A stretch of 64,000 bases of DNA, taken from a virus. Numbering within the stretch: position 1 is the stretch's first letter; every line of letters begins with the position of its first letter. Shown here in pieces: positions 1-46,798 of the stretch. The notes under the pieces are model-generated. The model was not told the origin of the DNA. It saw only the letters and a program-made list of their open reading frames with translations, and searched no databases. The DNA lies in the IMG/VR virus record IMGVR_UViG_3300045282_000183, positions 1-64,000 of that record; one strand, written 5' to 3'. The translations under genes were made by a program, and so were the position numbers.

Positions 1-1014
1 GGTTGCACCATAGGTGCGAACGTATTGTGCGTGACCGGAGCCAGTAGCCTCGGAGGCAACACGACCATCACCGGGCAGGCGATCCACACGGGCACTTCGG
101 CTCCATCGTCGGCTGCGGGTAATACCGTCGTGATGGGCACGCTCGCGAGCGCGCCAACACTGACCAACACCGGGCAGGCATTCTTCTACAATACCACGGC
201 GGGCGGTGCCGTGGTTTCTGGTGACGGGTCTTCGGATGATTTCCGGCTCTACAACAAGAGTGCCGGGCTCGTCATGAACGTTCCGACCGGAACGACGGTT
301 CCGCGGTTTCCCGGATTGGCTTCTGGAACATGCTCGAGCGGTCTCGCTCTTGATGCGAGCAACAATGTTGTCAAGAGCGCGTGCGCCGGAGCGGCCACGT
401 CGATCCAGGTTGCTGCTACGAGCGTGACGAGCTCTGGAGATAGCAACCGTATCCTGTCGAGTGGAACGGTAACAGCCGGCACGGGTACTCTCGCGGAGCT
501 GACACTCGGCACCGGCCTTTCGTTAAGCGGCTCGGCCATCGTGGCGAATGGCGGCAATAACTTCGGTGCTCCGAACATGAAGGTCTACCGCGCCACTCCA
601 TATTCGGTCAGTGCGGGCGTGGTTGCTAAGGTGACCTTCGACACCACGGATATTGACACCGGCAGTTATTGGGACAACACAAACAAGTATTATAAGCCAC
701 TCGTTTCCGGCACCTATCAGTTCTGCGCCTTCGTGACGCCGAACGGCACAACCATGAGTACAGACCAAATTTTATATTTCTCAAAGAACGGGACTATTGG
801 CAGTGGTGGCACGTCGGTCGGGTTGATCGTGTTCAACCAGCCAACCGTCACTGGTGACGGGGCTGCTATTTCTGGTTGCACGCTATCGGCTATGAACGGT
901 TCAACCGACACAATGGAGATGGACTACGGTCCACCGGGGACCGGGACCAGCATCACCTTAGCATGCGGTGCGAACCGCACTTGTCAATTCACAGCAATGA
1001 GGATTGGACCATGA
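1..1014 (+). CDS. Tail fibre/tip protein with C1q-like C-terminal domain (5' partial)
   Basis: The frame is open from the first base, so the gene begins upstream. The visible N-terminal half (about residues 1-190) is rich in Gly, Ser, Thr and Ala and looks like fibre shaft. The last ~140 residues, from MKVYRATPYS onward, resemble a C1q/TNF-like jelly roll (alternating beta strands, GTYQFCAFV, ending CQFTAMRIGP). Such domains commonly form trimeric receptor-binding tips. Its stop overlaps the next start (ATGA). It sits upstream of the lysis genes, as expected after the baseplate and fibre genes. Fibre role is inferred. Confidence 0.7.
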   Translation, partial: GCTIGANVLCVTGASSLGGNTTITGQAIHTGTSAPSSAAGNTVVMGTLASAPTLTNTGQAFFYNTTAGGAVVSGDGSSDDFRLYNKSAGLVMNVPTGTTVPRFPGLASGTCSSGLALDASNNVVKSACAGAATSIQVAATSVTSSGDSNRILSSGTVTAGTGTLAELTLGTGLSLSGSAIVANGGNNFGAPNMKVYRATPYSVSAGVVAKVTFDTTDIDTGSYWDNTNKYYKPLVSGTYQFCAFVTPNGTTMSTDQILYFSKNGTIGSGGTSVGLIVFNQPTVTGDGAAISGCTLSAMNGSTDTMEMDYGPPGTGTSITLACGANRTCQFTAMRIGP

Positions 1015-6828: not shown

Positions 6829-8313
6829 CTATATCAGCCACTCTCGTGCCTCCTCTCGTGTCATGGTTGTCGCGGTGGTTATCTTCTTGCGAAGGTTCTT
6901 GATGATCTTGTCGTCCACGGTGCCGGGTGTTCGCATGTCCACGTAGGTCACGCGATTGGTCTGCCCCTTGCGGTGGTTGCGATCCTCACTGTTCGCGCGC
7001 TGCTCAAGGTCGTCAGTGTTGCCGTAGTAGATGGTCTGGTCCGCGACGTTCCACGTGTTGCCGCGCCCACCCGCCGCCTGAGTGGAGACCATGAACCGGC
7101 ACTCCGGGTCGCCGAGAAATCTTCGCTCGTCCTCGCCGCGCGTGCTGTTGTTCGCGCCGTGGAACTGCGCCGTGCAGCCCGCACCGAACTCCTCCTCCAG
7201 CGCGGCCACGATGCGTTTCAGTGGCGTGTGGAAAGGCACCCAGATGATGGTCTTGCCGCGATGCAGACCAAGGACCTCTATGAGTTCCTTGGGTCTATTG
7301 CACGGTATCTCGTGCGTCCGGCCATGCTCATCCACCACGAAGCCGAGGTTGATCTGGTGCAGTCGCATGACCAGCGTCATGACGTGCTGGGTCGACACGA
7401 ACTCGCCGGTGCCGAGCTGCACCGAGGCGTTGTCGCGGAGCTCCCGGTAGAGCCTGCGCTGCTCCGGGGTGTGCTCCACGTCCCACATGACGTACCGCTT
7501 CGGCTCAAGATCGAGACAATCGGACTTCAGCACGCGATAGCTGTACGGCGCGATGCGATCGGCGAGCTCGTCCTGGTTCTTGTATCCCACGATCACGTCG
7601 AAGCGTCGCCCTCCCGTCTCCATGCGCCGCGTCACGCAGTACTCCCACTCGAACGAATGCCACGACTTGCAACCCACGATGCGCCAGTCCAGGAACTGGA
7701 ACTGCGCGAATATGTCCGCCGGTCCCTTCGGCGTGAGCAGCCCGGTCGCGATGCGCCGGACCACGGCCTCCTCCCCCACTGATCGTATGAATTTTGTGCG
7801 CTGCGCCTTGCGGCTCTTGATGGTCGTGCTCTCGTCCACGGCCACGTAAGCCAAACGCTGCGACACAAACTCCCGCACAAGCTCCTGCGCCTTCTCGACG
7901 CCTGATAGAGCCTCCACGTTCACGAACAGCGCGCGGGGGCGGTCGCTCACGCGCATGAAACGCTCCAGTCGTTTCAGCCGCTCCTTCCCGCCGCCGCTCC
8001 GCCAGCCCGCGATCTCCATGCGATCCACGAAGGCCGGGTCCATCTGCGCGTTGATCTCGCTCTGCTGGATATCGCTCTTGTCCTCGTACCAGTTGCGTAT
8101 GGATCCGGCGGGCGCGATCACCAGAAGGTCCTGCGGCCCCCCGCTGCACGCCATCTCTCCCCACTCGTCGAGTATCGTGCCGGACTTGCCGGTTCCGTAG
8201 TCCATCAAGAACGCGAATACGTCCTCGGGCGCAGGGTCACTCGGGGCGCTGGCGGCGGCCTTCCGGGCGGCGATCTGGTGCGTCATCGGCGCGCGTCTTG
8301 GCTTGTATCTCAC
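6829..8313 (-). CDS. SNF2-type DEAD/DEAH helicase
   Basis: Start GTG 8313 is chosen for the SD acaggagaag; upstream codons have no support. The 494-residue product carries a Walker A GTGKS (about 40-44), a motif II variant VDES (about 159-162), and a helicase C-terminal half ending in the SNF2 signature RNHRKGQ (motif VI, arginine finger). Phage SNF2-like helicases of this size act in replication, recombination or restart. It is the first gene of the short leftward operon transcribed away from the 8.4-kb control region, facing away from the primase and polymerase genes. Confidence 0.88.
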   Translation of the reverse strand: MRYKPRRAPMTHQIAARKAAASAPSDPAPEDVFAFLMDYGTGKSGTILDEWGEMACSGGPQDLLVIAPAGSIRNWYEDKSDIQQSEINAQMDPAFVDRMEIAGWRSGGGKERLKRLERFMRVSDRPRALFVNVEALSGVEKAQELVREFVSQRLAYVAVDESTTIKSRKAQRTKFIRSVGEEAVVRRIATGLLTPKGPADIFAQFQFLDWRIVGCKSWHSFEWEYCVTRRMETGGRRFDVIVGYKNQDELADRIAPYSYRVLKSDCLDLEPKRYVMWDVEHTPEQRRLYRELRDNASVQLGTGEFVSTQHVMTLVMRLHQINLGFVVDEHGRTHEIPCNRPKELIEVLGLHRGKTIIWVPFHTPLKRIVAALEEEFGAGCTAQFHGANNSTRGEDERRFLGDPECRFMVSTQAAGGRGNTWNVADQTIYYGNTDDLEQRANSEDRNHRKGQTNRVTYVDMRTPGTVDDKIIKNLRKKITTATTMTREEAREWLI

Positions 8314-8336: not shown

Positions 8337-8342
8337 AGTATA
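8337..8342 (-). promoter_or_regulatory. Possible extended -10 promoter for the helicase operon
   Basis: On the minus strand TGCTATACT (TGn extended -10 plus TATACT) lies 24 nt upstream of the helicase GTG. No convincing -35 is spaced at 17 nt, which is acceptable for extended -10 promoters. The leader would be short. Confidence 0.4.
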
Positions 8343-8417
8343 GCACGGGGACGGGTCAATTGCGCGTATTGCGGGGGTATTGAAATCTAACATGCATGCG
8401 CCCGAGCGCTAGAAGGA

Positions 8418-8523
8418 GTTTAATTACGATATTGTGATATTACCTCACGCGCGAGGAGTGGACGATCCTCGCGCACGCGTGAGGCAATATTATAATATTT
8501 CAATACCACAATACCCACTTGCC
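8418..8523. repeat. Divergent-region hairpin repeat, copy 1
   Basis: About 105 bp, AT-rich at both edges with a GC-rich imperfect inverted repeat in the centre (arms about 8437-8457 and 8466-8490, core tcctcgcgc/gcgcgagga). Copy 2 is at 41605-41702, same orientation: gtttaattaygatattgtga at the left edge, gacgatcctcgcgc in the middle, gtgaggcaatatt and aatatttcaatac on the right are shared. Both copies lie between divergent operons. The region 8346-8719 holds no convincing gene; a short open frame through the repeat (8434-8688) is probably incidental. Confidence 0.85.
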
Positions 8524-8608
8524 GTCGTCGCGCGCTTGTGGCAGAGTGACCACGAGCTGCTCTCCCGGCCAGCTTGGGGCGGCCTTCCTGTGCAGGCATA
8601 CCGCCAGA

Positions 8609-8643
8609 GCGCCCCGTGCTGCTGGCAAACCGGCACGGGGCGC
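8609..8643. repeat. 11-bp perfect inverted repeat upstream of rightward promoter
   Basis: GCGCCCCGTGC (8609-8619) pairs perfectly with GCACGGGGCGC (8633-8643) around a 13-nt loop. It ends 9 nt before the candidate -35 at 8652, so it may be an operator or the end of an upstream-initiated transcript. Confidence 0.55.
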
Positions 8644-8651
8644 GACCATGT

Positions 8652-8685
8652 TTGCAGTCGTCGCTCGCCCGGGGTATCATACCCC
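8652..8685 (+). promoter_or_regulatory. Candidate sigma70-type promoter for the rightward replication operon
   Basis: TTGCAG (8652-8657), 17-bp spacer, TATCAT (8675-8680). The -10 is embedded in the palindrome GGGGTATCATACCCC (8671-8685), which would be an ideal operator. The SD cacaggagaa and ATG 8720 follow directly. Confidence 0.55.
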
Positions 8686-8719: not shown

Positions 8720-9334
8720 ATGCCAAAGCAGACACGTGCGCCCAACGCAGCGCTTCTGGCCGAGATGACGGCCGACACCCCCGCTGCCTCCCCTGATCAG
8801 CTCGAGAACATCCGCAGGCTGGCCGCCGAGATGCGAGATCTTCAGACACACAACGCGAGCATGCAAGAGCAGATCAAGCAGAACAACGAGCGGATCGAGA
8901 AGATCAAGTGGCAGGATCTTCTCGACGCCATGGACCGGGCGCGCATGCGCTCGTTCGTGCTGGAGGCAGAGGGTAATTTTCCTGCCTACGAGATCAAGAC
9001 CGGAGCCTACTACCACGCGAACATATCATCTGACTGGCCCGAGGAGCAGCGCGCGAAGTCGTTTGCTTGGCTCGGCAAGCACGAGCCGGGCATGCTACGC
9101 AACACGATATCCGTAGAGTTCGGAAAGAACACCGCGAAGCAGCAGAAGATGCTGGCCGCGTTCTGCAAGAAGAATAAGATGAACTTCCAGCAAATATTCG
9201 GTGTGCCGTGGAACACGTTAACGGCATACGTGAAAGAGCAGATCGAGGAGCACAAGGCCACGCCCCCGCTCGAACTGCTTGGAGCCAAGGTCGGGCGGGT
9301 GGCCAACATGAAGCCAGTCAAGGAGAAGAACTGA
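8720..9334 (+). CDS. Hypothetical early protein with coiled coil
   Basis: ATG 8720 is set by the SD cacaggagaa. The 204-residue product has a polar coiled-coil segment (about residues 30-65, QEQIKQNNERIEKIK) followed by a compact mixed domain with aromatic residues (GAYYHANISSDWPEEQ) and a Lys-rich C-terminus. It is the first gene after the rightward promoter and overlaps the ssDNA-binding-like gene by one base. A replication accessory role is suggested by position only. Confidence 0.65.
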   Translation: MPKQTRAPNAALLAEMTADTPAASPDQLENIRRLAAEMRDLQTHNASMQEQIKQNNERIEKIKWQDLLDAMDRARMRSFVLEAEGNFPAYEIKTGAYYHANISSDWPEEQRAKSFAWLGKHEPGMLRNTISVEFGKNTAKQQKMLAAFCKKNKMNFQQIFGVPWNTLTAYVKEQIEEHKATPPLELLGAKVGRVANMKPVKEKN

Positions 9335-21105: not shown

Positions 21106-22215
21106 ATGTACGTACTCATCGAGCGAAACGTGTGCGACTTGCTGCCGAGAGGTCTCGGGTTCATGCGCGACAAGCCTCGCGAGAAGACCCGGAACGGCGA
21201 TGCGCTGGTGGCTCCGGCTCCGGTGATGTCGGTCTACCAGCGACCGACCGAGCGCGTGCTGCGCAGTCCGCAGCGCGACGCCAATCCATTCTTCCACCTG
21301 ATCGAGAGCCTGTGGATGCTGGCCGGTCGTGACGACGTGGCGACGCTGAACCACTACGTCGGTGACTTCGGCGGGCGCTACGCCGAGGAGGACGGCCGGG
21401 TCCACGGCGCGTATGGTCATCGGTGGCGCGTCGGGCTGGGGTTTGATCAGCTCGACGTGATCGTGAGACGTCTGCTCGAGAACCCGAGTGACCGGCAGTG
21501 TGTTCTGCAGATGTGGGACGCGCGAGCCGACACGTTGCATCAGGACGGCTTCGACGACCTGCTTGGTGACTGGAAGGACCGCCCGTGCAACACGCACGTC
21601 TACTTCCGGGTGCGGACCGTGCCGATTGATCCTATCATGTACGGCGATGGTGTCGTTCTGCCGCGCTACGAGTACGTGCTCGACATGACCGTGTGCTGTC
21701 GCAGCAACGACGTGGTCTTGGGTGCGTACGGTGCGAACGCCGTGCACTTCAGCATGCTCCAGGAGTACGTGGCCGGGCGAGTGCGGACGCAGGTCGGCAC
21801 GATGTATCAGCTCTCGAACAACTATCACGTCTACGTCGATCAGCTCGCGAAGATGGAAAAGCGTCTGTTCGACGGCAAGCCGACGCAGAACCTCGCGAAT
21901 GAAATGCAGCCCTACGGCGTGGGTGTCGGCTGGGAGGCCGAGCCGATCGGCGAGCACTGGGGCGCGTGGGACGATGATCTGCACGCATTCATGGAGTGTC
22001 ACGACGTGCTGTGGAGCATTCCCGCTCCATCACTCGAAATGAGGGCGGAGGTGAGTAACAGGTGGTTCGCGCAGGTGGCCTGGAAGGTGGCGTTCGCCTA
22101 CTTCTGTCACAAGCACGATCGTCGCGACGAGGCGCTCGCTGTGGCCGGGCAGATCGAGGCCGGCGACTGGCGCGGCGCGTGCGTGGAGTGGCTGCTGCGG
22201 AGGTACGCGCGATGA
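21106..22215 (+). CDS. Thymidylate synthase-family enzyme, probable dUMP hydroxymethylase
   Basis: A 369-residue TS-fold enzyme. Seen are IESLWMLAG (conserved Glu, 65-73), RVHGAYGHRWR, SDRQCVLQMWD (phosphate-binding Arg), the nucleophile Cys161 in RPCNTH, CCRSND (197-202) and GAYGANAVHFSML, with Asn211 at the position that selects dUMP over dCMP. It is longer than standard TS (~264). In thymine-modifying phages the TS homologue makes 5-hydroxymethyl-dUMP. TS and hydroxymethylase cannot be separated by eye; the neighbouring kinase and HMUDK-like genes favour hydroxymethylase. SD gggaggag; stop overlaps the HD gene. Confidence 0.85.
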   Translation: MYVLIERNVCDLLPRGLGFMRDKPREKTRNGDALVAPAPVMSVYQRPTERVLRSPQRDANPFFHLIESLWMLAGRDDVATLNHYVGDFGGRYAEEDGRVHGAYGHRWRVGLGFDQLDVIVRRLLENPSDRQCVLQMWDARADTLHQDGFDDLLGDWKDRPCNTHVYFRVRTVPIDPIMYGDGVVLPRYEYVLDMTVCCRSNDVVLGAYGANAVHFSMLQEYVAGRVRTQVGTMYQLSNNYHVYVDQLAKMEKRLFDGKPTQNLANEMQPYGVGVGWEAEPIGEHWGAWDDDLHAFMECHDVLWSIPAPSLEMRAEVSNRWFAQVAWKVAFAYFCHKHDRRDEALAVAGQIEAGDWRGACVEWLLRRYAR

Positions 22216-40088: not shown

Positions 40089-40354
40089 CAGTATCTCCTC
40101 AGCACGTGGTTGATCCGGCCCCTGCGCGCCATCTTGCTCAGGTGGGCGCGATAGCGACGCATGAGACGGCGGGATTTCTTGTAAAGAGCGTTCGTAATCA
40201 CATAGAAGCGGCGCATGTCACGCTCGTTGTATCTGAGAACGAACGAGCCCGAGATAACGTCCTGGGAGACGCCGACCACGGATGCGAGCTCAGATTGAAC
40301 TATTCTCGTGAGTTCCTGCGCATCTATCTCGCGTCTCAATTTGGAGGAGCTCAC
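40088..40354 (-). CDS. Basic hypothetical protein
   Basis: GTG 40354 overlaps the upstream stop (GTGA). The 88-residue product is basic (KKSRRLMRRYRAHLSK) with a helical N-terminus. Possibly nucleic-acid binding. Not recognised. Confidence 0.55.
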   Translation of the reverse strand: MSSSKLRREIDAQELTRIVQSELASVVGVSQDVISGSFVLRYNERDMRRFYVITNALYKKSRRLMRRYRAHLSKMARRGRINHVLRRY

Positions 40355-40815
40355 GATGTGACCTCCTCCAGCCGTATCCAGCCGCGACGCAGCGCCCCCC
40401 GCACGTCGCGCTGACGGGCTCCTCGGGATCTACACTGCTCGATGGTGAAGTGCTTCTTGAACGAGCGCTCGAAGCGGCGGTAGGCGTCGGTGTTCGGCTT
40501 CCTCGGATTAGCCACGACGTGGCTGATCCGCGGCTGCCGACGCACCTGAGGCCGCCCGTTAGATCTCCACTGAAGGAGCACGCTCTGGCATTGCATGATT
40601 GGTCTGCCAAGTATGCGCTCGATAAGCAGGCGCGAGCCTCTCGTGTTGATCCTGAGAAGGCTCAGGATCAGGTCGGCCTGACCAAGACCGTGATCGTGGA
40701 GCGCGTACGGCATGGACCTGCCCAAGGGCAGGTCCAGGTCGCGGCGGACGAGGTACGACACGACCGGGTCTCGGTCTACGTAGGCGATGGCCGGGAGGTA
40801 GCGAGCTAGGATCAT
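40351..40815 (-). CDS. Hypothetical protein
   Basis: ATG 40815 in ATGA overlap. The 154-residue product has an N-terminal alpha/beta part (LPAIAYVDRDPVVSYLV) and a basic helical end (AYRRFERSFKKHFTIEQ, RDVRGALRRGWIRLEE). Not recognised. Confidence 0.55.
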   Translation of the reverse strand: MILARYLPAIAYVDRDPVVSYLVRRDLDLPLGRSMPYALHDHGLGQADLILSLLRINTRGSRLLIERILGRPIMQCQSVLLQWRSNGRPQVRRQPRISHVVANPRKPNTDAYRRFERSFKKHFTIEQCRSRGARQRDVRGALRRGWIRLEEVTS

Positions 40816-41604: not shown

Positions 41605-41702
41605 GTTTAATTATGATATTGTGATATTGCCTCGCGTGCGGGGAATGAAGACGATCCTCGCGCGTGTGAGGCAATATTTCAATATTTCAATACGGGCTTG
41701 CC
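41605..41702. repeat. Divergent-region hairpin repeat, copy 2
   Basis: About 98 bp with the same edges as copy 1 (gtttaattatgatattgtga on the left, gtgaggcaatatt and aatatttcaatac on the right) and a GC-rich imperfect hairpin in the middle. It ends 36 nt before the NusG-like ATG. The two copies are about 33.2 kb apart. Confidence 0.85.
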
Positions 41703-41737
41703 AACGGCCCCGGAGGTGGCGTAGTAGCCTGAGCCCA

Positions 41738-42229
41738 ATGGCACCGCGCAAGGCAAAGCTCTTCTGGGCAGCACTCACCGTCGGGTACGGCGACGAGCAG
41801 CGCGCGATGTACTCGGTGACAGATCTCGTCGTCGACGCCTACAACCCACAGATGAAATCACGCGGGACGTCCCGCTCAGTCCTTCCAGGATATCTGCTCG
41901 TCAAGCTGCGCCGGGGCCAACACCTCGGCGAAGTTTCGAGGGCGAAGCACGTGACGGGATATCTCGGCGAGGTGGATCGGGCTGACGTCGAGTGGATACG
42001 CTCTCTCGAGAACTCCGCCGGGTACGTCGAGCCTGACAAGGTGGCGAGCCCCCCGACCTTCGCGTTCGGGGACCGGGTGATGGCCTTGTCCGGCGTCGCC
42101 AAGCACTGCGCGGGCGAGTATCGTGGCCTAGACCGAACCAACTACGACGACGCGAGGATACTGTTCCGCGTGCTGGGCCGCGAAGTTCGCGTCTCGGTGC
42201 CGCGTCGCGATCTGGTACTCTCCGCGTAG
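41738..42229 (+). CDS. NusG-like transcription antitermination protein
   Basis: ATG 41738 is chosen (SD ggagg at 41711 is distant; the frame extends to 41603). The 163-residue product has an NGN-like domain (LFWAALTVGYGDEQRAMY, SVLPGYLLVKLRRGQH, KHVTGYLGEV) and a C-terminal KOW domain (FAFGDRVMALSGVAKHCAGE, RVSVPRRDLVL). NusG/RfaH/LoaP-type proteins bind RNA polymerase and reduce pausing or termination. As the first gene of the ~22-kb late operon it probably promotes its own operon. Confidence 0.82.
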   Translation: MAPRKAKLFWAALTVGYGDEQRAMYSVTDLVVDAYNPQMKSRGTSRSVLPGYLLVKLRRGQHLGEVSRAKHVTGYLGEVDRADVEWIRSLENSAGYVEPDKVASPPTFAFGDRVMALSGVAKHCAGEYRGLDRTNYDDARILFRVLGREVRVSVPRRDLVLSA

Positions 42230-42347
42230 GAGGGTGCTGTCATCGGCCAGAACTGAGCGCCCGGGACATCCGGGTGCGGAGCCTCGGCCAAATTCAAGAA
42301 CCGCAAGCACTTAGATGCGTTCCACGCATCGTGCAGAAGGATCTGGG

Positions 42348-42809
42348 ATGCATACACAGATAGAACGAAGAGGCAGGAAGGGAGCAGGGCCGACGCCCGG
42401 GTCTTTCAAGCCAGGAAACAAGGCGGCCACTCGTGCTCCAGGCAAGATGCCGATGGGTCGCTTCATCACTGCTCAGCTGATCCGTTTGATGCAGGAAGAG
42501 ATCCCCGACCCGAACGACAAGGCGAAGATCAAGGCGCGAGCGAAGCGTGTCTATTTCTTCTGCCTCACGCTCGTGAACGCCGCGATCGCGGGCGACACTG
42601 CCGCGCTGAAGATGGTGATGGATCGTATCGAGGGCACGCCGATCAGTACGATGAACCTCAAGGTGACAGACGATCCGGATAATATCACTCCCGAGGAGAT
42701 GGGAGCGCTGGCGGAGACGCGCGAGAAGCTCAAGACCATGACGCGCGACGAGAAGCTGGAGTTGTACAACCGGCTGACCAGCAGCAGCGAGACGCGTGGG
42801 GAGGCGTGA
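42348..42809 (+). CDS. Probable terminase small subunit / DUF5681-like protein
   Basis: ATG 42348 with SD-like aaggatctggg. The 153-residue product begins with a basic GPTPGSFKPGNKAATRAPGK segment (DUF5681-like), followed by helices (MGRFITAQLIRLMQEE, RVYFFCLTLVNAAIAG). Position directly upstream of and overlapping terL supports a DNA-recognition subunit. The preceding 118-nt gap contains GATGCGT-tcc-ACGCATC. Confidence 0.65.
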   Translation: MHTQIERRGRKGAGPTPGSFKPGNKAATRAPGKMPMGRFITAQLIRLMQEEIPDPNDKAKIKARAKRVYFFCLTLVNAAIAGDTAALKMVMDRIEGTPISTMNLKVTDDPDNITPEEMGALAETREKLKTMTRDEKLELYNRLTSSSETRGEA

Positions 42810-44499: not shown

Positions 44500-44807
44500 G
44501 CAGAGCCAACCGACGCAACGTGATGCTCGACCTGAATGGCGAGCATCTCTCGCGACTCCTCCAGGTCATCGCCGACGATCAGCTCGTTCTCGGTGTTCTG
44601 GACGACGACAGCCAGATCCTGCGCACCGTGTCCGGGCGCAAGGCACACGATCGCCCGAGCACAGTGTCCCGCTCACAAACCCCCCGTGAGCAGGGTGCAT
44701 GTGTCGCTGACCTTCCCACTGCGAAGTGCTCTGGCGTAGGGGCCGCCGACCGGTCTTCCGATCCGTCGCTGGTTGGCGGCCCCGTCATCACAGGAGTGCC
44801 CACTTGA
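44496..44807 (+). CDS. Hypothetical protein between terminase and portal
   Basis: GTG 44496 overlaps the terL stop; the TGA at 44805 overlaps the TTG start of the portal (TTGA). The 103-residue product has a small helical N-terminus (NVMLDLNGEHLSRLLQVI) and a Ser/Pro-rich tail. Double coupling supports it although the sequence is unrecognised. Confidence 0.55.
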   Translation: MSRANRRNVMLDLNGEHLSRLLQVIADDQLVLGVLDDDSQILRTVSGRKAHDRPSTVSRSQTPREQGACVADLPTAKCSGVGAADRSSDPSLVGGPVITGVPT

Positions 44808-46798
44808 CCAAGGCGCGAAAGGCTGGCATCACCAAGGACACGATCCGCAGGGCGGGTGTCGCCGAGCGACGGACCGCGAAGCAAACGAGCGACAGCTTCC
44901 AGAACTTCATGCTGAAGCTGGGCATGGGCACCGACAATCCACTGTCCGGCAGCACGTACGGCTTCAATCCCATCTCGCGCGTGCGCACGCTCCTCGAGTG
45001 GATCTACCGAGGCAGCTGGATCGGGCCGATCGCGATCGATATCATCGCCGAGGACATGACCCGGGCTGGCATCGACATCTCCACGCAGATGGAGCCGAAG
45101 GCGCTCGAGAAGCTGAACAAGGGCGTGCAGAACCTCGGCTTCTGGAACGCGGTCAGCGACACTATCAAGTGGTCTCGCCTGTATGGTGGCGCGATCATGG
45201 TCCCGATGATTGACGGGCAGGACGTCAGCACGCCACTTCGCGTGGAGACCGTGACGCGGGGTCAGCTCAAGTCGTTCATGGTGCTGGACCGCTGGATGGT
45301 GGAGGCTCGTCTCGAGGAGCTCGTCGGTCCCGCTGATGCGCGCGTCGGCGAGCCGATGTTCTACCGCGTGAACAGCGACGCCCCCGCTCTTCGCGGCAAG
45401 AACATTCACTACACGCGCTGCATGAGGATGCTCGGCACGAAGCTCCCGTACTGGCAGGCCGTGCAGGAGAACCTCTGGGGACTGAGCATCTTCGAGCGCA
45501 TCTACGATCGCCTCGTGGCCTTCGACTCGTCGACGCAGGGCGCGGCGCAGCTTGTCTACAAGAGCTTCCTCCGTACCTACAAGATGAAGGGCATGACGGA
45601 ACTCTTGTCGTCCGGCAGCGAGCAGGGGATACAGACCCTGATGCGCAAGATGGACGCGATGCGTCGCTACCAGAGCAACGAGGGCATCACGCTCGTGGAC
45701 GGCGACGACGACGTGACCGCCGTGACCAACTCCAGCTTCACAGGCATCAGCGACGTGATCCTGCAGATGGCGCAGCAGATCAGCGGCACGCTGCAGATGC
45801 CTCTCGTGCGCATGTTCGGGCAGAGCCCGGCTGGGCTGAACTCCACCGGAGAGGCCGACCTCCGCACGTACTATGACGGCGTGAACACCAAGCAGGAGCG
45901 CGAGACGCGCGCGCCCGTGACCACCATGTATCGCCTGATGGCTCAGTCCCTCGGCACGCCTCTGCCCGAGGACTTCGACTTTCAGTTCACGCCGCTGTGG
46001 CAGCTGGACGAGGGCCAGAAGAGCGAGATCTTCAGTCGCGACGCCACGTCGTACTCGGCCCTGAAGGACGCGGCCATCGTCGACGACGCCTTCGTCTTGC
46101 GCGAACTCAAGCAGTCTTCCAAGTCGCTGGGCCGAGGCGACAACATCACCGACGAGATGATCGCGGCCGCTGAGCTGGAGCCCGACGACCTCGGCGTCGG
46201 TGCCGGGCTGGGCCTCTCCGACGACGAGATACGCGAGGCCGGGGGCGACCCCTCGAAGATCAAGCACGACAATCCGGTCAAGTCGCCGCTGGCACAGCTC
46301 GCCGCGGGAGGATTGAAGCCCGGCAAGTCTACGCCGATGAGCAAGCCGACGCTGGTCAGCAGTCGCGACAAACAGCGCACCCGCGACAGTCTGCCGCAGT
46401 ACTCTGTCTGCGGCGTCATGGTCGCGATCGAGAACCTCGCGGGCAGCACGCGCACCGGCCCGGGCTGGTCCGTCGTGATGACGGCCGACTACGGCCACGT
46501 GCCGACGGTCTCGTCGGCCGAGGGTGACATGCAGTGGATGGACGCGTTTGTCGGCCCGAACCGCGACAGCGAGGACGCGTGGATCATCGACGCGCACGAT
46601 CCTCGCACCGGCGAGTTCGACGAGCACAAGTGCATGCTCGGCTTCGACAGCGAGGACGAGGCGATGGAGTGCTTCCGCACCTCGTACAACGACAACGCGC
46701 GAGGGCGCATCGGAGGCGTCACGCACATGGACCGCGAGCAGTTCACGGCGTGGCTCCAGGGCGGGGATCACGCGCGACCCGTCGCGAGGGCCGCGTAG
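44804..46798 (+). CDS. Portal protein (DUF1073-type) fused to inorganic-pyrophosphatase-like domain
   Basis: TTG 44804 with SD caggag is preferred over the open frame to 44726. The 664-residue product has a portal core (residues ~20-480: GSWIGPIAIDIIAEDMTRAG, SRLYGGAIMVPMIDGQ, QSPAGLNSTGEADLRTYYDG), a linker, and a C-terminal InPase-like domain (MDAFVGPNRDSEDAWII, GEFDEHKCMLGFDSEDEA) known as an appendage of phage proteins. The portal ring connects head and tail and conducts DNA; the role of the InPase-like domain is unknown. Confidence 0.88.
   Translation: MTKARKAGITKDTIRRAGVAERRTAKQTSDSFQNFMLKLGMGTDNPLSGSTYGFNPISRVRTLLEWIYRGSWIGPIAIDIIAEDMTRAGIDISTQMEPKALEKLNKGVQNLGFWNAVSDTIKWSRLYGGAIMVPMIDGQDVSTPLRVETVTRGQLKSFMVLDRWMVEARLEELVGPADARVGEPMFYRVNSDAPALRGKNIHYTRCMRMLGTKLPYWQAVQENLWGLSIFERIYDRLVAFDSSTQGAAQLVYKSFLRTYKMKGMTELLSSGSEQGIQTLMRKMDAMRRYQSNEGITLVDGDDDVTAVTNSSFTGISDVILQMAQQISGTLQMPLVRMFGQSPAGLNSTGEADLRTYYDGVNTKQERETRAPVTTMYRLMAQSLGTPLPEDFDFQFTPLWQLDEGQKSEIFSRDATSYSALKDAAIVDDAFVLRELKQSSKSLGRGDNITDEMIAAAELEPDDLGVGAGLGLSDDEIREAGGDPSKIKHDNPVKSPLAQLAAGGLKPGKSTPMSKPTLVSSRDKQRTRDSLPQYSVCGVMVAIENLAGSTRTGPGWSVVMTADYGHVPTVSSAEGDMQWMDAFVGPNRDSEDAWIIDAHDPRTGEFDEHKCMLGFDSEDEAMECFRTSYNDNARGRIGGVTHMDREQFTAWLQGGDHARPVARAA

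Follow-up and report, generated by a model that had tools for sequence, protein, structure and literature searches.

Several phages carry operator or activator sites that are common to two control regions, as in the OL and OR regions of lambda and in the phi29 region of the early A2b and late A3 promoters, with its sites for protein p4. From such paired sites, one regulator can control both early and late transcription. The small LoaP hairpin, part of the transcribed leader, is a different kind of element (PMC12691694). A third kind is provided by AlpA, whose element is embedded in the promoter between the -35 and -10 hexamers (PMC9371919).

Here we describe a long palindromic element that is present at two control regions of an uncultivated phage. 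The window analysed comprises 64,000 nucleotides of a 69,180-bp viral record, and all of our results derive from sequence. A blastn comparison of the window with itself aligned the two cores listed in Table 1 in the same orientation (85.7% identity over 91 columns, E 6e-22), with the best similarity over these cores and weaker similarity from ~8396 and ~41583. The copies lie in one register, 33,187 bp apart, and a search of the whole record found these two and no third. The original prediction that the same element occurs twice, in one orientation and nowhere else, is thus borne out, as is its placement of each copy between leftward and rightward genes, which our gene calls (made with a simple home-made caller) reproduce at both gaps. 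Window positions 1-127 recur at record positions 69054-69180 as a 127-bp direct terminal repeat, so the record is probably a complete genome of ~69,050 bp. The predicted spacing of 33.2 kb was accurate but the predicted genome size of ~65 kb was too small, and the copies are 48% of the genome apart.

Table 1. Features of the window and, for the relatives, positions of the paired copies.
Feature	Position	Strand	Remark
Helicase gene (SNF2/HepA-like, phrog_62)	6829-8313	-	adjoins copy 1 on the left
Candidate leftward extended -10, TGCTATACT	8337-8345	-	helicase gene; read from sequence
Six AATATTNCAATA-type words	8378-8513	.	starts 8378, 8430, 8486, 8488, 8494, 8502
Palindrome copy 1	8418-8523 (best-matching core 8418-8506)	.	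AT-rich outer arms, GC-rich inner stem
Candidate distal rightward promoter, TTGCCG-N17-CAGAGT	8519-8547	+	TGG before second hexamer; by eye, by pattern
GC hairpin, -27 kcal/mol	8609-8643	+	terminator-like but lacks a T run; lies between the two candidate rightward promoters
Candidate proximal rightward promoter, TTTGCA-N18-TATCAT	8651-8680	+	precedes gene 8720
Pam3 gp33-like gene (DUF7307)	8720-9334	+	first gene of replication operon
Conserved gene near copy 2	40351-40815	-	C-terminal helix-turn-helix-like pattern
Small gene, 44 aa	41204-41338	-	leftward neighbour of copy 2
Palindrome copy 2	41605-41702 (core 41605-41693)	.	
Four AATATTNCAATA-type words	41617-41692	.	starts 41617, 41673, 41675, 41681
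Candidate rightward late promoter, TTGCCA-N17-GTAGTA	41698-41726	+	11 nt before NusG-like ATG
NusG/RfaH-family gene	41738-42229	+	first gene of late operon
Pair in G001	40458/6407		
Pair in G005	45507/11805		
Pair in G007	24970/65576		
Pair in G008	34869/75870		
Pair in G009	15568/46024		inverted
Pair in G010	245/34943		

The two copies stand at the heads of distinct gene blocks. Rightward of copy 1 lie Pam3 gp33-like, gp34-like and primase genes, followed later by helicase, thymidylate synthase and DNA polymerase genes. Copy 2 is preceded by a series of small leftward genes and followed by the NusG/RfaH-family gene and then by terminase, portal, capsid and sheath genes. The phage nearest to this one by capsid among annotated phages is Edwardsiella phage vB_EpM_ZHS, whose annotated gene order is unlike that of the window, and a host search that compared the primase with bacterial genomes returned a single match, to a metagenome-assembled contig. 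No lysogeny gene was recognised among the genes searched, and the phage belongs to an uncultivated, probably lytic group with genomes of 67-90 kb. The portal open reading frame (44804-46798) has an extra C-terminal domain known from minor head, endolysin and DarB-like families. A thymidylate-synthase-like gene lies at 21106-22215 and one of the early genes searched encodes a predicted 5-hydroxymethyl-dU DNA kinase, which together suggest DNA with hypermodified thymidine; such modification, if real, would alter the AT-rich arms of the element too.

The assignment of the first late gene to the NusG/RfaH family draws on both profile and structural comparisons. An aligned set of 11 NusG-like proteins matches RfaH (2e-16) and NusG (1e-15) over both domains, and the Pfam NusG family matches all 11 members (best 7e-16), the window's own member being a weak match (0.008). 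The predicted structure matches NusG and RfaH as well. Profile and predicted fold thus place in this phage paralog the NGN and KOW domains that are a feature of LoaP/RfaH systems. We identified a gene of this type in 10 of 10 relatives examined (eight complete or near-complete genomes and two fragments), and found no consistent terminators between it and the terminase small-subunit gene. The untranslated stretch past the gene (42229-42447) contains a short hairpin-like sequence, GGGACATCCG...GTGCGGAGCC, that is conserved in the window and G005. NusG/RfaH-like proteins are common in viral contigs more generally (91 confirmed among 285 pattern matches; 80 further loci, L159-L238). Only 1 of 17 long contigs checked that encode such a protein also has the primase of the present group, so most of the further loci seem to come from phages outside it. 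No paper on a phage-encoded NusG emerged from a search of the open-access literature, and one may exist elsewhere.

Relatives were recruited by protein searches with terminase, primase and helicase and then read whole. This yielded ten uncultivated contigs (G001-G010), of which eight are complete or near-complete at 67-90 kb and two (G003 and G004) are late-region fragments, so that the eight together with the window's own phage (G000) provide nine genomes with both loci. Conservation in relatives had been proposed as a check on the element, and the outcome differs for sequence and arrangement. The exact sequence, queried as a 23-base conserved stretch, had no match in other viral contigs, but comparison of each genome with itself revealed an element pair at the same two places in seven of the nine genomes, with one member in the divergent gap that adjoins the helicase gene and the other in the gap ahead of the NusG-like gene. 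Identity within a pair is 75-88% and the two members share an orientation in six of the seven pairs, that of G009 being inverted. Element sequences are mostly unrelated between genomes, though an AT-rich outer arm and a GC-rich inner stem can be read across them and a CCTCACG-like inner word in some.

The recurrence of the same two positions in seven diverged genomes is incompatible with chance repeats, and the matching of sequence within each phage, coupled with its divergence between phages, argues for a trans-acting, phage-specific partner. Two near-identical palindromes in one genome could alternatively represent a miniature mobile element, or a repeat homogenized by gene conversion, that plays no part in regulation. 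Mobile elements would be expected at scattered sites, whereas here the record lacks further copies and different sequences occupy the same loci in different genomes, and we consider this explanation very improbable. The absence of a pair from two of the nine genomes, G002 and G006, counts against a paired site; G002 does, in its early gap, have a very large palindrome (27-nt arms, 93%; folding energy -86 kcal/mol). A further 73-kb genome, G027, encodes the NusG-like protein and much of the late module, yet has no pair.

Short repeated words are concentrated in the same two gaps. Allowing up to two mismatches, AATATTNCAATA occurs 14 times in the window where 1.07 occurrences are expected (0 of 100 shuffles), and 10 of the 14 sit in the two control regions. 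We regard these words as candidate protein-binding half-sites. Other genomes have words of their own, including CCAATAA in G005 (five in the two gaps, none elsewhere), AGATTAT in G007 (four and none) and CGGTATA in G010 (seven and one). The enrichment of 7-mers was reached by at most 2 of 200 random window pairs in G000, G002, G005, G006, G007, G008 and G010, was weak in G001 (12/200) and G009 (6/200) and scored 1/200 in the unpaired G027, values that carry modest weight since the null was not matched for base composition.

Both copies fold more stably than dinucleotide shuffles on either strand, whether treated as DNA or as RNA (z -3.2 to -7.7). Against 200 such shuffles, the plus strand gives z values of -7.7 (copy 1) and -6.2 (copy 2) as RNA and of -6.1 and -5.3 as DNA. 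Rfam contains no match for the element at the gathering score; the sub-threshold matches are to microRNA-precursor models only, which score any long hairpin.

The palindrome might be read as a recruitment site for the phage NusG paralog. Transcribed from a start upstream, it would fold into an RNA or non-template DNA hairpin that loads the paralog onto RNA polymerase, with LoaP-like processive antitermination of both long rightward operons as the outcome. The encoding of a NusG/RfaH-type protein by all ten relatives examined fits this proposal, as do the shared orientation of the copies in six of seven paired genomes and the precedent of LoaP, which acts by way of a hairpin of the leader RNA in two target operons (PMC12691694). 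In some late copies, G-U pairs also make the sense-strand fold the more stable one (copy 2 of G000, at -42.2 versus -29.1, and those of G005 and G010). However, a pairwise RNA covariation test favoured neither strand overall, with G007 favouring the antisense strand, and pairwise consensus folding of both strands, comparing RNA with DNA, likewise identified no consistent strand. Compared with the LoaP hairpin, the elements are moreover much longer and vary far more, one pair is inverted, and transcription from the likely promoters would start beyond the palindrome. We consider recruitment of the paralog by the hairpin unlikely. On this view, a lytic lineage would combine its NusG/RfaH paralog with a long hairpin, one copy ahead of the replication operon and another ahead of the late operon that includes the paralog gene itself. 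The two would form a self-reinforcing switch for processive antitermination in which the specificity between element and protein changes rapidly from phage to phage, and this too we hold to be doubtful.

Promoter-like sites, called from consensus hexamers and their conservation, adjoin the element at both loci. In five of eight late gaps (G000, G003, G005, G008 and G010) the hexamer TTGCCA occurs 4-37 bp past the element, which was seen in 0 of 2000 shuffles, and the equivalent in G004 is TTGCAA. A -10-like hexamer follows 17 bp further on in G000, G003, G004 and G005 and ends 9-11 nt before the ATG of the NusG-like gene, which may leave the transcript of that gene with hardly any leader. A similar late site was read by eye in G007 (TTGCGC-N17-TACATG, 9 nt before the ATG). 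A scan with a stricter consensus found no promoter in the late gap, which counts against a paired control site, and accepted only the proximal early site in the window.

In the early gaps, sites homologous to the distal promoter candidate are present in G001 and G002, and in most relatives a terminator-like hairpin lies past the first promoter-like site. In at least three early gaps, those of G001, G002 and L042, inverted promoter-like copies flank the palindrome and point outward, with inverted repeats of 26 nt (73%), 34 nt (82%) and 16 nt (100%), respectively. Window positions 8546-8648, which lie between the element and the gene that opens the replication operon, form a stretch of a type (roughly 80-150 nt, with two or three hairpins of which the last is terminator-like) that also occurs in the early gaps of G001, G002 and G005-G009, the last hairpin of G007 being followed by TTTT. 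In the window this stretch has no match in Rfam, and it might represent either a small RNA or a leader subject to attenuation.

An AT-rich melting region, repeated words and a hairpin are also what a replication origin present twice would offer, and the original prediction had suggested an origin element that melts in its AT-rich flanks. Copy 1 adjoins the replication operon and contains AT-rich repeated words, and in eight of nine genomes the cumulative GC skew is lowest at the early gap. A DnaA-box-like word, TTATGCACA, is found in the early and late gaps of G001 and G002 and twice in the late gap of G006, though it was not seen in the two gaps of the window. Gene direction alone explains the skew minimum, however, and a reversal of replication-strand skew at the element was sought but not observed. 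At 4-fold sites in most genomes, the late half has a lower G excess and a higher T excess than the early half; GC and TA skew thus move in opposite directions, contrary to a replication-strand signal. An origin would also give no role to the flanking promoter-like repeats or to the pairing with the NusG/late operon. The suggestion of an origin is thus unsupported by the skews, and we judge it improbable.

Of the functions originally put forward, that of a paired promoter/operator for a phage regulator agrees best with the arrangement in seven of nine genomes, the adjoining -35-like hexamer and the clustered 12-base word. A paired control site is indicated by the restriction of a phage-specific sequence to two copies at the same two loci, by the clustering of AATATTNCAATA-type and genome-specific words in both gaps, and by the conserved TTGCCA next to the element together with the outward promoter-like repeats. 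That the site acts as DNA rather than as strand-specific RNA is suggested by the inverted pair of G009 and by candidate promoters downstream of the element. From these patterns we infer that the hexamers are promoters and that a protein binds the DNA of the element. The element is, in our view, probably a phage-specific operator or upstream activator, present as a pair, that jointly controls the replication and NusG/late operons.

According to this paired-operator model, each site would consist of a long palindrome of short repeated words, immediately preceding a sigma70-like promoter that points rightward. Copy 1 would serve the replication operon, and in relatives the divergent helicase gene as well, and copy 2 would serve the operon of the NusG paralog and late genes. 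A putative trans-acting DNA-binding regulator, probably encoded by the phage, would bind both copies and couple replication to late expression, and the turnover of words between phages would reflect turnover of the regulator's specificity. A protein search that took in most genes of the early and leftward blocks and a selection of the late ones detected no sigma factor, integrase, annotated repressor or activator, or polymerase besides the DNA polymerase of the replication block; the lack of an annotated repressor or activator among the searched genes counts against a paired operator. The product of the conserved gene near copy 2 has a predicted fold that is helical with a helix-turn-helix-like end and has no match among solved structures, and its candidacy as the regulator is speculative.

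These observations point to one genetic switch that ties replication to late gene expression, and they bring out a phage-encoded NusG/RfaH-like protein. Replacement of the element sequence while its two positions stay fixed also constitutes a natural experiment, through which the partner protein could be found by co-variation.

A comparison with the known systems places the element closest to phage operators, while highlighting several differences. A similar palindromic, repeat-bearing site at two control regions of one genome characterizes the operator class and is found here, and palindromic repeated words lie beside divergent promoters in lambda and phi29 and beside divergent candidate promoters here. 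Unlike the lambda and phi29 sites, the present element is ~90-140 bp long, has AT-rich outer and GC-rich inner arms, and is replaced in sequence between related phages, with a cognate regulator that is putative. As in the LoaP/RfaH class, this phage has a NusG-family paralog, encoded first in a long operon, and a hairpin element near two operons; here, however, the element seems to be located upstream of its promoter, in contrast to the LoaP hairpin in its leader (PMC12691694). Like Q and AlpA elements, which combine a promoter site with a terminator downstream, it would be a DNA element at a promoter, with a terminator-like hairpin downstream in the early gaps of most relatives of our phage. 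Q elements are, however, promoter-embedded like that of AlpA, whereas the present element ends 4-37 bp upstream of the candidate -35 hexamer in the late gaps measured, and an assignment to this type was rejected on that geometry. Judged by the arrangement of its sites, and with its cognate regulator putative, the element thus appears to work like a paired phage operator.
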